Source: Methanobrevibacter sp.
GTDB lineage: Archaea; Methanobacteriota; Methanobacteria; Methanobacteriales; Methanobacteriaceae
Direction of reading: 5' to 3'
Assembly: GCF_017539065.1 (NCBI RefSeq)
Contig: NZ_JAFYHP010000026.1
Location: 1-64,000 of the forward strand
Length of the DNA stretch: 64,000 nucleotides
Below are positions 22,290 to 26,560 of this stretch, piece by piece. The notes below the pieces were generated by a model. That model saw nothing but the letters and a program-made list of their open reading frames with translations, did not search any database and had not been told where the DNA came from. Within the stretch, counting starts at the first letter, position 1. Every line of letters starts with the position of its first letter. Position numbers and translations under genes: made by a program.

Positions 22290-23225
22290 TTAGATTCCGA
22301 ATTTCTTATTGAAGAATTTCTCTCTTAATTCAAAGTTTAACTCCTCAATATCTGCACCATTGATTGCCTTTTGTAATGTTTTATAACAAGTCTTTTTAGG
22401 TATAGTAGTGCTTTTAATATGAGATTTATTCCAGATTCTGTCAAATCTTTTCTTAAGACTTCCCAAATCAACTTTTTCTGTCACATTTTTTATATTGAGG
22501 ATATTCGCTTCACTAATGATTTCATAGGTGGCGTAAGTCTGTGCATCCATGACAATTGGATTCAAACCTAAAATGTAACGTTGCAAATCATAATCAAGGA
22601 ATGAGTCATAATCCTTTTCATATGCATATACGTGAGCCTTTGCGGTCAGTGCATCGATAAATACTAAAAAGTGATTTGAAACCAATGACCTTGAAAGGAT
22701 TTCGTCACAGAAATTCAGTGCTGTTTCAAAACTTCCAACATCGGATGCATTGTAATAGGTTTCATAATCTTCAAATCTGAATGCTACAAGAGCAAACATG
22801 TATAAGTCCATCCACTCATTTTCCTTTATGAAATCCTTTGCTTTTTGAGTTAATTCCAAATTTGCAAACGATTTGTTGGTATCAGCAGACACATCCAACT
22901 TGCGTGCATCCTTTGCTTCCTTTAATAATGGCAAGACTCTTTCCACCAATTCATGTTTTTTACCGGACACTTTCAGGCCGTTTTCCCTTAGGATATCCTT
23001 CAATTCAGCAACAACATAATTTTTAGAGATGTGTTCAGCAGTGATTTCAACATCAGCTGTTATTTCAACATCCCCTTCAAGATATCCTTCATCAATCAGA
23101 TAATTAATACATTCTTCTGCTGATGCGAATGTCCCGAATTGGCCTTCGTTTAATATATCTTCAAGTTCATAACCATGATCCAAAAAATTTAAAACATTAA
23201 ATACTTCTAATTTCTGTTCAGTCAC
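22290..23225 (-). CDS. SAP-domain protein
   Basis: 311 aa, starting at GTG with AAGGTG upstream. A SAP motif (YVVAELKDILRENGLKVSGKKHELVERVL, about 70-98) follows an acidic leader with a short VEITADVEITAEH repeat. SAP helices bind DNA or serve as docking modules. The C-terminal 200 residues are helical and Tyr/Phe-rich, with no enzyme motif. SAP proteins of this kind recur in Methanobrevibacter; function unknown. A perfect 16-bp palindrome lies just upstream of its start. Confidence 0.7.
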   Translation of the reverse strand: MTEQKLEVFNVLNFLDHGYELEDILNEGQFGTFASAEECINYLIDEGYLEGDVEITADVEITAEHISKNYVVAELKDILRENGLKVSGKKHELVERVLPLLKEAKDARKLDVSADTNKSFANLELTQKAKDFIKENEWMDLYMFALVAFRFEDYETYYNASDVGSFETALNFCDEILSRSLVSNHFLVFIDALTAKAHVYAYEKDYDSFLDYDLQRYILGLNPIVMDAQTYATYEIISEANILNIKNVTEKVDLGSLKKRFDRIWNKSHIKSTTIPKKTCYKTLQKAINGADIEELNFELREKFFNKKFGI

Positions 23226-23381: not shown

Positions 23382-23642
23382 TTAAAACATGATTTGCTTT
23401 TCAATCATTTCCATCATAGGTTTGACATCATCAGAAAGATTAATCTCAGTTACTTTTTTAGAAGACCTCTTTTTTGAAGCATAATATGCTTGTGCAAAAC
23501 TCATGCTAATATAAAAAATTCCCTCAAAATCCATTATAAACTCCTTTTCATCCATTTGATTTATTTTATCAAATAAATCAGATGCAGATTTATTAAAATC
23601 CAAAGCAGTATTTATCTCATCTTTAAGCTTTATAATCATCAT
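23382..23642 (-). CDS. STAS-like (DUF4325-type) small protein, copy A
   Basis: 86 aa, starting ATGATGATT with GGTGTA upstream. It reads as one small alpha/beta domain: a strand (FIMDFEGIFYISMSFAQAYY), helix, and a NLSDDVKPMMEMI ending, as in STAS-like proteins that accompany histidine-kinase-type ATPases. It is a paralogue of the protein at 24632-24889. In bacteria STAS partners switch anti-sigma kinases; archaea have no sigma factors, so the target here must be different. Confidence 0.7.
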   Translation of the reverse strand: MMIIKLKDEINTALDFNKSASDLFDKINQMDEKEFIMDFEGIFYISMSFAQAYYASKKRSSKKVTEINLSDDVKPMMEMIEKQIMF

Positions 23643-23730: not shown

Positions 23731-24462
23731 CTAATGTCCCATAATATGTTCATCATCTAATAAATAATAATTGTAATTGCCTCCTAAAATATGCAATGAA
23801 CCTTTTCTTGATATTATTAATAATTCACCACCATTACCTTCTCCAATTAATCTCGCAATAGTTCTCAAACCATTTCCGCGTTCATAAAAAGTATCTGAAA
23901 CAGTAGAAAAAGTCCCAATACCCATTTCTAGTGAATGACAATCATCAACAAAATCAACATTAGATTTCTCAAATAACCCCGGAATAGACAACCCATCATC
24001 GACAACTGAAACTTCCAATTTTTCATATTCCGAATATAATTTAGAATAGATATAACTTTGCAGAGGCCTATTTTCAATTTTTGCATGATCATAGACATTA
24101 TTTGCTAACTCTGATACGATGTGTCTTAAAGAGAAATAACCTCCATAACCTGAATCCAAATTATCCATATAACATGTGATAAAATCGATTTCATCACTTT
24201 TAATTCTAGATATTGGTAATTTAGAAAACAATACGTCCTATTTTAACATGCCCTCTAAAACTTCAAAAGCATTTCCCTTATTTGGGATATTAAAATTTTG
24301 TTTTTTAAACTCACATAACAATGGAAGGGATGTTGTTGGATTAAGTTCTACATCAGTTAAATCAATTTCACCATCACGTGCACTTTTTAATATTTCTTCA
24401 AATTCCATATAATTATCAAACAAGTCTTTAAGTGTTATAATAACACCACCTAAATCATTCAA
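23731..24462 (-). pseudogene. GHKL ATPase-type regulator split by an in-frame TAG
   Basis: One continuous frame of 244 codons is interrupted by TAG at 24240-24238. Upstream part: 74 codons, without a usable ATG after the AGGTGG site (24450-24445); ATA ATA stands where the flanking paralogues have ATG ATG. Downstream part: 166 codons from a TTG at 24231, with the Bergerat-fold N box ELANNVYDHA, the DDGLSIPG loop and GNGLRT, as in anti-sigma-type serine kinases. Both defects point to a decaying gene; coupled reinitiation at TTG with a weak AGGA site is the alternative. It lies between two STAS-like genes on the same strand. Confidence 0.75.
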
Positions 24463-24550
24463 TAATTAACCAGAAAGTGAAAAAATCCGGATTTAAACAA
24501 CTTTTCAGTTAACAAGATTAGTTTAGTCAAAAAGACATATAAAATAAGCA

Positions 24551-24573
24551 GTTGTAAATAATAACAATTTTAC
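24551..24573 (-). promoter_or_regulatory. promoter element GTAAAATTG-N6-TTTACAAC, copy 1
   Basis: On the minus strand GTAAAATTG (24573-24565), six bases, then TTTACAAC (24558-24551), followed 6 bases later by a TATA-like TTTTATATG, upstream of the split ATPase gene. The same element with the same spacing to a TATA box occurs at 25946-25968. Confidence 0.6.
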
Positions 24574-24631
24574 AATCGAAAAACAATATTTCAAACTCGT
24601 ACAACTTTTGTTTTAAAAAAATAAAAAAAGA

Positions 24632-24889
24632 TTAGGGATTGCATGCCTCATCCGCAGCCCCCATGACTACAGTTACTTCATCAGACAGGTTGATTTCGGA
24701 AATCTTTTTATCTGATTCATATTTGGCAGTATAGTATGCCTGTGCAAAATTCATTGTAACAAACATTACTTCCTTAAAATCGATTATAAAATCGTCTTTA
24801 GGGATTTTATTTAAAATATCAATTAATTCAGTTGCATCTTCGCTGGATTCCAAATGAGTGCCGAATTCGGCGCCAAGATTAATCATCAT
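24632..24889 (-). CDS. STAS-like (DUF4325-type) small protein, copy B
   Basis: 85 aa, starting ATGATGATT with AGGTG upstream. Same domain as the protein at 23382-23642: FIIDFKEVMFVTMNFAQAYY, then KKISEINLSDEV. The two proteins share the FAQAYY, EINLSD and DF core but differ elsewhere, so the duplication is not recent. It is upstream of the split ATPase gene, giving the order STAS B, ATPase, STAS A. Confidence 0.7.
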   Translation of the reverse strand: MMINLGAEFGTHLESSEDATELIDILNKIPKDDFIIDFKEVMFVTMNFAQAYYTAKYESDKKISEINLSDEVTVVMGAADEACNP

Positions 24890-24939
24890 TTTAACACCTA
24901 TATTAATATTTAAAATTCATCATTAATATATTAATTAAC

Positions 24940-25104
24940 ATGAAATGTCCATATTGTGAAAGAGAATTGGTCAAAGTATTTCACGGAGAGCCTGGTGATG
25001 AACTCGCCGAAGAATCCTTGGAAAATACTGTGATAATTGGAAACTGCTGTGAAAGCGAATACAATTATTATTGTGAAAACTGTGATGAATTCTATCAGTT
25101 TTAA
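24940..25104 (+). CDS. 54-aa zinc-ribbon protein
   Basis: 54 aa, starting MKCPYCEREL. Cysteine pairs CPYC (3-6), CC (36-37) and CENC (45-48) form a probable zinc ribbon; the middle is acidic. No ribosome site precedes the ATG, and TATA-like sequence lies about 25 bases upstream, so a leaderless transcript is likely. Not conserved in any family I can name. Confidence 0.6.
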   Translation: MKCPYCERELVKVFHGEPGDELAEESLENTVIIGNCCESEYNYYCENCDEFYQF

Positions 25105-25165
25105 AAAAAAAAAAGAAAAGAGACCTTATTATAATATAATAAGGTTTATTTAATTGCACTTGCTT

Positions 25166-25378
25166 CTAGTCTGCTGTAATATATGCATCATAAGCAGCGT
25201 AAATAGCAATAAACAAATTAATTATGTATACAACCCATGATCTAAAGATCCATGATGCAATAATTCCCATAATTAACGCAAGTACGAACAATATTATACC
25301 TTTTTTAATATCACCATTTATAGCTTGACCTAATCCTGGGATAATGAAAGATAATATAGCTGAGATTATAGGTATCAT
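25166..25378 (-). CDS. small TM2-like membrane protein
   Basis: 70 aa, with GGAGGG upstream. Two to three hydrophobic segments with the IIPGLGQAINGDIKKG turn typical of small TM2/DUF5683-like membrane proteins, ending AYDAYITAD. Function unknown. It stands alone between the zinc ribbon and the next hypothetical gene. Confidence 0.65.
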   Translation of the reverse strand: MIPIISAILSFIIPGLGQAINGDIKKGIILFVLALIMGIIASWIFRSWVVYIINLFIAIYAAYDAYITAD

Positions 25379-25513
25379 ACTTTCCCTCCATCATTTTTAA
25401 GGCAATATGCCAAACATTATTATTCACTCTATTAAATAATAATTAATATTAAGTTTATATTTCTTTTATATAAATATTTGCTTATTTTTTAATAATTCAG
25501 CGAAAAAAAATTG

Positions 25514-25975
25514 TTATAATCCTAAAATGTCCTTATCAGGATTTGAATTTTTAAACAAGTTAATTTTTACATCTCTTTTCCATGTGAATTTCAAAAGACC
25601 CTCATGAACCAATTTTAAATCGTCATCTGAGAAATCTTCCAGATAATAGATTTTTCCCCTTTCGCCAACATTCACTAAGAATCTTATAAGATGCCTGTAC
25701 ACCATCACTGAATGAGGCTTATAGACTACAATATCATCTGTGATGTATTCAATCAACTGCTCCATTTCAAAAACATCGGGAGTCATGACTTCGACATCAC
25801 ATGTTGGGAATTTTTCACGAATTATTGCCTCATAATCCACATCATCACCACTAATAGATTTCAATATAATAAATATTAAAATTAATGGAATGAAAATTCG
25901 AGGATTGAAAAAACAATAACAATCTATAAAAACTGTTTTAACTTCGTAAAATTGATTTATTTTACAACTTACCAA
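25514..25975 (-). CDS. hypothetical protein with N-terminal membrane segment
   Basis: Up to 153 aa; the start is unclear because the frame opens with TTG and no good ribosome site, and the first in-frame ATG lies well inside. A hydrophobic stretch (FIPLILIFIIL, about 28-38) precedes a soluble domain with VEVMTPDVFEMEQLIEYI and a final DILGL. No family recognised. The promoter element at 25946-25968 overlaps the 5' end of this frame, which argues for a later true start. Confidence 0.4.
   Translation of the reverse strand: MVSCKINQFYEVKTVFIDCYCFFNPRIFIPLILIFIILKSISGDDVDYEAIIREKFPTCDVEVMTPDVFEMEQLIEYITDDIVVYKPHSVMVYRHLIRFLVNVGERGKIYYLEDFSDDDLKLVHEGLLKFTWKRDVKINLFKNSNPDKDILGL
25946..25968 (+). 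promoter_or_regulatory. promoter element GTAAAATTG-N6-TTTACAAC, copy 2
   Basis: GTAAAATTG (25946-25954), six bases, TTTACAAC (25961-25968), then 7 bases to a TATA-like TTTATAAAA (25976-25984), upstream of the gene at 26033. Seventeen of seventeen defined bases match copy 1, in the same orientation to the gene. Confidence 0.6.
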
Positions 25976-26032: not shown

Positions 26033-26560
26033 ATGAATAAAAAGGATTTTGATATAAGAGCTAAAATCATTAAAGAAACGTTCAAGGACAACCGCCCCAT
26101 AAAATGTGAAACCCCTGAAGATGAAAGAAAGCTTGATGAAAATGTTCACCCCGGAGGAGACATTTTCACAACCGAAGATGGAGAATTCATAGATTTTGAA
26201 CTGCAGCTAAACGATTTTAATGAGGAAGAACTTACAAAGTATATCGAATTTGCTGAAAACCTTTATGAAAAGCACCAAAAGCACGTCTCTGTTTACTTGC
26301 TATGTCCTAAAAATATCAGTGTCAGTGTCAGGGAATGTACAATAAAATCAGAATCAGACTTCACAATAAAATTGGCATGTTCACAAGAAGACCCCTGCCA
26401 TATAATCCTTAATGGAATTAAAAATAAGCTTAAAAATAAGGAAATGCTTGATGGGGATGATTTGCACGCTCTTGCAATGCTTCCAATAATGTGCGATAGA
26501 AAGGACAGGAACTACTTTAGATTGGAATACTTGAAGATAATTAATAGATACTTCTATTGA
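26033..26560 (+). CDS. PD-(D/E)XK / Rpn-like nuclease-type protein
   Basis: 175 aa. A GGDIFTTEDGEFIDFELQL segment (about 41-60) followed by strands and helices resembles the Asp/Glu-x-Gln core of Rpn (PDDEXK) family proteins, where the acidic pair and the E-x-Q motif bind metal. The C-terminal LHALAMLPIMC helix also fits Rpn-type proteins. GAAGGTTAAA precedes the ATG. It shares its promoter element with the split ATPase gene at 24.5 kb. Nuclease assignment is tentative. Confidence 0.5.
   Translation: MNKKDFDIRAKIIKETFKDNRPIKCETPEDERKLDENVHPGGDIFTTEDGEFIDFELQLNDFNEEELTKYIEFAENLYEKHQKHVSVYLLCPKNISVSVRECTIKSESDFTIKLACSQEDPCHIILNGIKNKLKNKEMLDGDDLHALAMLPIMCDRKDRNYFRLEYLKIINRYFY

Follow-up and report, generated by a model that had tools for sequence, protein, structure and literature searches.

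Promoter-proximal activators of archaea include Ptr2 and GvpE as well as TFB-RF1, and to our knowledge each site of a TFB-RF1-type activator is single or palindromic, with one or a few genes under its control. TFB-RF1 itself has a site just upstream of the BRE/TATA region, from which TBP or TFB can be recruited (PMC5937170). The element described here was found in a stretch of 64,000 nucleotides from Methanobrevibacter sp. (contig NZ_JAFYHP010000026.1, positions 1 to 64,000; hereafter the window). It likewise lies just upstream of BRE/TATA, a position that would fit an activator site, but it differs in consisting of direct 19-bp repeats, variable in number, which stand before dozens of unrelated genes. 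Direct-repeat rows at several promoters are also known from the bacterial plasmid pSM19035, where the ribbon-helix-helix protein omega binds cooperatively to rows of short, 7-bp units that act as both operator and partition site; the units described here are 19 bp long and lie on archaeal chromosomes.

Tandem repeats scattered over the host genus and abundant in M. ruminantium have been reported as satellites, and in this respect they resemble the present element; that study highlights satellites with units over 30 nt and calls those of M. ruminantium mutually unrelated (PMC6749651). A term search of its main text turned up neither promoters nor any 19-base family. The main text of the M. ruminantium genome paper contains none of the terms 'tandem', 'repeats' or 'promoter', and in the open literature no paper was found that joins Methanobrevibacter with such a promoter motif or regulon. 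Within this literature, the 19-bp promoter array is a previously undescribed, switch-like DNA element.

Matching blocks in two promoters of the window

A preliminary description of the window had drawn attention to a 23-bp block shared by the promoters of two unrelated genes, a broken GHKL ATPase gene and an Rpn-like nuclease gene. Both blocks are present (Table 1), 17 of 17 defined bases are identical, each block is oriented toward its gene, and the distance to the TATA-like box amounts to exactly 7 bases in both promoters. As a regulon signature, the pattern GTAAAATTG-N6-TTTACAAC fared worse. The two exact matches remained the only ones in the whole genome (1.84 Mb, 31 contigs), and near copies with at most two mismatches appeared at the control rate (4 vs 3 in the reversed control). 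By the refuting criterion set out in that earlier description, the pattern fails. Roughly a dozen other words of the same 9-N6-8 form are each common to two unrelated places in the window. The bare word match is weak evidence by itself.

The matched block is evidently the small visible part of a longer element of 19-bp repeats that lies far beyond chance, since in both promoters a second core is found 19 bp upstream and the arrangement is conserved in orthologues. The functionally matching part can be narrowed to GTAAAATTG, which is the core of one unit, and to AAC seven bases before the TATA box; this terminal AAC is a member of a conserved block preceding TATA. Relatives do not conserve the intervening TTTAC, and its identity in the two promoters is coincidence.

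Table 1. Positions of promoter elements and neighbouring genes in the window
Feature	Position	Strand	Basis
ATPase-side block GTAAAATTGTTATTATTTACAAC	24573-24551	-	sequence
Nuclease-side block GTAAAATTGATTTATTTTACAAC	25946-25968	+	sequence
ATPase-promoter array (cores ATATTG 24589-24584, AAATTG 24570-24565)	24550..24592	-	model R1, orthologues
ATPase TATA box TTTATATG	24536..24543	-	sequence and equal offset in orthologues; 27 bp from last core
Nuclease-promoter array (cores AAACTG 25930-25935, AAATTG 25949-25954; AAC 25966-25968)	25927..25970	+	model R1, footprint, 19-bp scan
Nuclease TATA box TTTATAAAA	25976..25984	+	nearly invariant TTTATA in 37-locus footprint; spacing constant across sites
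Rpn-like PD-(D/E)XK nuclease-type protein, 175 aa (predicted)	26033..26560	+	profile match, AlphaFold model
Broken GHKL ATPase gene	23734..24462	-	translations, orthologues, HATPase_c_2 E 0.001
Small STAS-like ORF upstream of ATPase	24632..24889	-	ORF list
Second STAS-like ORF, downstream of ATPase	23382..23642	-	weak DUF4325 (STAS-like) match, E 0.028, below cut-off
SAP-domain protein beside the STAS/ATPase cluster	22290-23225	-	E 1e-10

Genes behind the two promoters

The 175-aa protein matched the profile of the array-associated Rpn set (prob 96, E 3.4e-9) and no Pfam family above cut-off. Its family has conserved GD and E-x-Q columns, and its AlphaFold model (pLDDT 91) shows the expected order of helices and strands. 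The best PDB match of the model was the NucS/EndoMS repair endonuclease (prob 1.0, E 1e-3), a weak match with a low TM. The conserved columns and the model together give a helix-strand core with acidic D...E-x-Q residues, and the protein is of a predicted nuclease type. Compared with the curated Rpn family (TIGR01784), it is a distant relative and shorter than the roughly 300-aa Rpn proteins.

The ATPase gene is indeed broken, as had been described, and is a pseudogene here: an in-frame TAG occupies 24238-24240, and the reading frame shifts close to the 3' end, at about 23740-23750. Its orthologues are intact, about 271-279 aa long and located behind a like promoter. The small ORF upstream of the ATPase gave no significant Pfam STAS match. 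In both G017 and G018, two relatives, 44-53 bp separate the end of an ORF of about 80 aa from the array that follows it, an overlapping ORF of 85-90 aa is located at the position of the downstream STAS-like ORF, and the order small ORF-array-ATPase-small ORF is intact. No support was found for the notion that the STAS gene has its own copy of the element: the array is placed after the upstream STAS-like gene and before the ATPase.

Architecture and conservation of the 19-bp array

The array is a tandem repeat with an exact period of 19 bp, a core AAAATTG and a unit of about GTAAAATTGnTTTcAcTTC. A 19-bp scan of the window showed, in each of the two promoters, a pair of cores with a spacing of exactly 19 bp, and the last core starts 27 bp before the TATA box in each; in the nuclease promoter, the distance from the last core to the ATG is 84 bp. 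The sequence-only model R1, trained solely on nuclease and ATPase promoters, matched the nuclease-promoter array with 35 bits (E 2.7e-8) and the ATPase-promoter array with 31.7 bits (E 3.1e-7), both promoters being members of its training set.

Orthologous promoters were compared at 37 loci for the nuclease (40-84% protein identity in orthologues from other species) and at 4 loci for the ATPase (60-66%). The upstream regions align without gaps around the exact 19-bp repeat, with the consensus AAATTGATTTAACCTTATT-AAATTGCTTTAAAAAATAA-CTTACTAATTTATAA for the nuclease promoter and (TTCGTAAAATTGnTnTCAn)n-TTTAAAACTGCTTATTTTATA for the ATPase promoter, whose architecture is repeated in three relatives (L038, L039 and L040). 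Across the 37 loci, the information per column is 0.12 bits in the upstream flank, 0.48, 0.80 and 0.97 bits in successive units and 1.14 bits in BRE/TATA. Just before TATA, array promoters carry a special AAAACTGA block where general promoters of these genomes have only a slight excess of A. Outside the core the units differ, with ATTTAAC in the nuclease class vs TTCTCA in the ATPase class, and this difference allows for the possibility of two related regulators instead of one. From the claim of a common element at two unrelated genes, what survives is a promoter element of the same type, kept across species at a fixed distance from TATA, while the 23-bp unit as such recurs at chance.

Abundance and distribution of arrays

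In the genome of the window, R1 found further sites at E 5e-7, 1e-5 and 8e-5, along with weaker ones, and several of these sites contain three units in step. Independently of any model, intergenic AwATTG pairs were counted by their spacing. In 399 kb of G018, there were 32 pairs at 19 bp, 17 at 38 bp and 6 at 57 bp; other spacings gave about 0.4, and within genes no pair at 19 bp was seen. The genome of the window contained 9 pairs at 19 bp and 4 at 38 bp. Dinucleotide shuffles gave means of 0.45 (maximum 3) and 0.48 (maximum 5) pairs at 19 bp. The 19-bp peak in G018 corresponds to a Poisson p of about 1e-48, and this model-free spacing count is the decisive evidence.

Exact AAAATTG-N12-AAAATTG pairs, summed over 38 genomes of the host genus, numbered 366 vs 15 in the reversed control; in most other genera they stayed at control level. 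A two-unit model, R2, was applied at a threshold of E<=0.01. Because R2 includes matches from the genome of the window, the model-free counts carry the main weight. Of 25 host-genus genomes, 24 had R2 matches, and none of the 16 genomes outside the genus did, with 14 in the genome of the window, 59 in G018, 50 in G024, 38 in G017 and none in G020. Across the family, they were confined to the host genus and genus g16, except for one weak match elsewhere. Two near-complete genomes of the host genus, G020 and G096, are devoid of exact array pairs. Most of the genomes compared are draft MAGs, and gene calling followed a simple ORF rule. A viral origin of the arrays was also considered and rejected; two patterns had no match in 2.9 million viral contigs.

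Placement relative to genes

All 16 arrays in 399 kb of G018 adjoin a gene start, and none lies between convergent genes. At 75 sites in five genomes, the spacing between the last core and TATA clusters at 25-28 bp, with a further 19 bp at sites whose last unit has degenerated. Genome-wide matches of the 19-bp array show the expected promoter bias strongly. A minority of arrays face the end of a converging gene, and in part of this minority TATA is missing at the expected phase. Several of these are situated just upstream of a divergent gene, and orientation is not strict. Such end-pointing arrays appear to serve the divergent gene on their other side, and an array may act in both directions. 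In a separate subclass (L151, L155, L159, L166, L174 and L207), the array is followed by a common CATAgTATTTAAATTTAACTATTTT-like block with no co-directional gene start nearby; short non-coding transcripts could originate from these arrays.

Genes associated with arrays

When 52 proteins encoded downstream of arrays were clustered, 12 turned out to be Rpn-type nucleases, to which the window protein is linked, and 8 belonged to a family with an HNHP/HSHT motif. There were also two-member clusters of ERCC4 nucleases, of GNATs and of STAS-linked ATPases, and HEPN proteins were present too. Array-bearing genes are mostly accessory, and nuclease genes are the commonest among them. Because nuclease promoters had formed part of the training set of the model that picked these downstream genes, a reverse test was run in which Rpn genes were located by TIGR01784 alone, blind to arrays. 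The strict 19-bp pair was present upstream of 6 of the 8 intact Rpn genes vs 17 of 645 background genes (p 2.6e-8); by eye, the sequences in front of the remaining two look like degenerate arrays.

The second family is a frequent neighbour of arrays and carries the motif HNHP/HSHT...PS..NF. Its members (L149, L152, L177, L188, L189, L190, L194 and L198) are unannotated and measure 174-246 aa where intact. The single member tested against Pfam (L177) gave no match; the family is possibly JAB-like. Elsewhere in the genome of the window, two near-identical three-unit arrays (L209 and L210, contigs C14 and C27) both lie near contig ends. Behind each of them, a small protein and a HEPN-domain gene resemble a toxin-antitoxin pair.

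In the ruminantium-like genome G066 (genus g16), loci L318-L334 contain arrays of up to about 20 copies of the 19-bp unit, with locally repeated super-units of 38 and 57 bp. These arrays also precede housekeeping genes, for example MoaC-like and LeuA-like ones (named by reading the sequences), and a narrow regulon fits them less well. The small regulon of STAS, ATPase and nuclease genes that had been envisaged found no support; the actual unit is a 19-bp tandem repeat preceding dozens of genes, some of them housekeeping in the M. ruminantium-like genome. The downstream genes do include many Rpn-type nucleases, toxin-antitoxin-type or defence-type genes and, in several species, the STAS-linked ATPase, but the set is much wider. 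A PADLOC scan of the downstream genes gave few convincing matches apart from one PDC-S01 AAA/DUF4143 gene. A 'defence regulon' is not claimed; given the housekeeping genes behind the G066 arrays, the label would be an overstatement. As candidates for the regulator, an HTH-like gene behind the L160 array and a RhuM-like gene beside L335 (seen by eye) were rejected as single cases.

A model of array function and its alternatives

The repeat element, its period, its phase to TATA, its conservation, its distribution and the classes of genes behind it are established at the level of sequence. Quite probably, the element is a genus-specific, promoter-proximal regulatory array of two or more direct 19-bp units that is bound by a protein and switches scattered genes together. 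According to this model, a Methanobrevibacter DNA-binding protein would sit side by side on the 19-bp units and contact or recruit TBP/TFB at the adjacent core promoter. The scattered array-bearing genes would then switch together, and the nuclease and ATPase promoters of the window would represent two members of the set. A single regulator for these two genes is plausible, and one regulator probably controls the large scattered set. An activator is moderately favoured over a repressor, since the array comes to an end immediately before the core promoter, leaving both TATA and the start site uncovered.

Repression is nevertheless a possible, if less likely, mode of action, in which a protein coating the repeats would block TBP/TFB; until a signal releases this protein, costly nucleases and toxin-like genes would remain silent. 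It draws on the same sequence evidence as activation, many downstream genes (Rpn, HEPN) are potentially self-toxic, and arrays occur in either orientation near divergent genes. The units, however, stop before the TATA box and leave the start site uncovered, and a fixed phase to TATA would be less necessary for an operator. We regard as speculative, and less likely still, that a global regulator specific to Methanobrevibacter polymerises on the arrays and puts a dispersed pool of nucleases and toxin-like genes under a single programme, for instance one directed at invading DNA; in the ruminantium lineage, the arrays would have lengthened into tracts that also help to organise the chromosome. 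A purely structural role, with the arrays as centromere-like or iteron sites of a DNA-segregation or chromosome-organising protein that lie in promoters incidentally, comparable to the sites of omega on pSM19035, seems improbable. The repeats would suit such a role in being direct, tandem and of iteron length, in their scatter over the chromosome and in the length that they reach in G066, but the rigid distance to TATA and the tie to particular gene families would be unexpected.

Neutral satellites generated by replication slippage are more improbable again. The large potential of M. ruminantium to grow satellites, 83 of which have been counted (PMC6749651), and the long G066 arrays with their super-units are in line with slippage. 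Against it, orthologous arrays keep their core, period and phase across species while the flanks are unconserved, arrays are found at gene starts and not between convergent genes, and the units of short arrays differ from one another except in the core, and hence do not stem from recent slippage. That the two copies in the window match by chance and have nothing functional in common hardly deserves credence. The peer words in the window and the lack of a genome-wide excess would agree with it, but the 19-bp arrays of both promoters are conserved in orthologues, and the G018 peak is far outside random expectation. Judged by these alignments and counts, chance is refuted for the underlying array and holds only for the TTTAC part.

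Implications

Methanobrevibacter is the dominant methane producer of the rumen and of the human gut, and little is known about its gene regulation. An element defined by its sequence and present at tens of genes per genome offers a testable regulon as well as a bait for its regulator, and the array-free genomes G020 and G096 are useful for tracing a lost regulator. Common control would also group proteins that have so far gone unnamed, namely the Rpn-like proteins, the HNHP family and the small partners of HEPN proteins.
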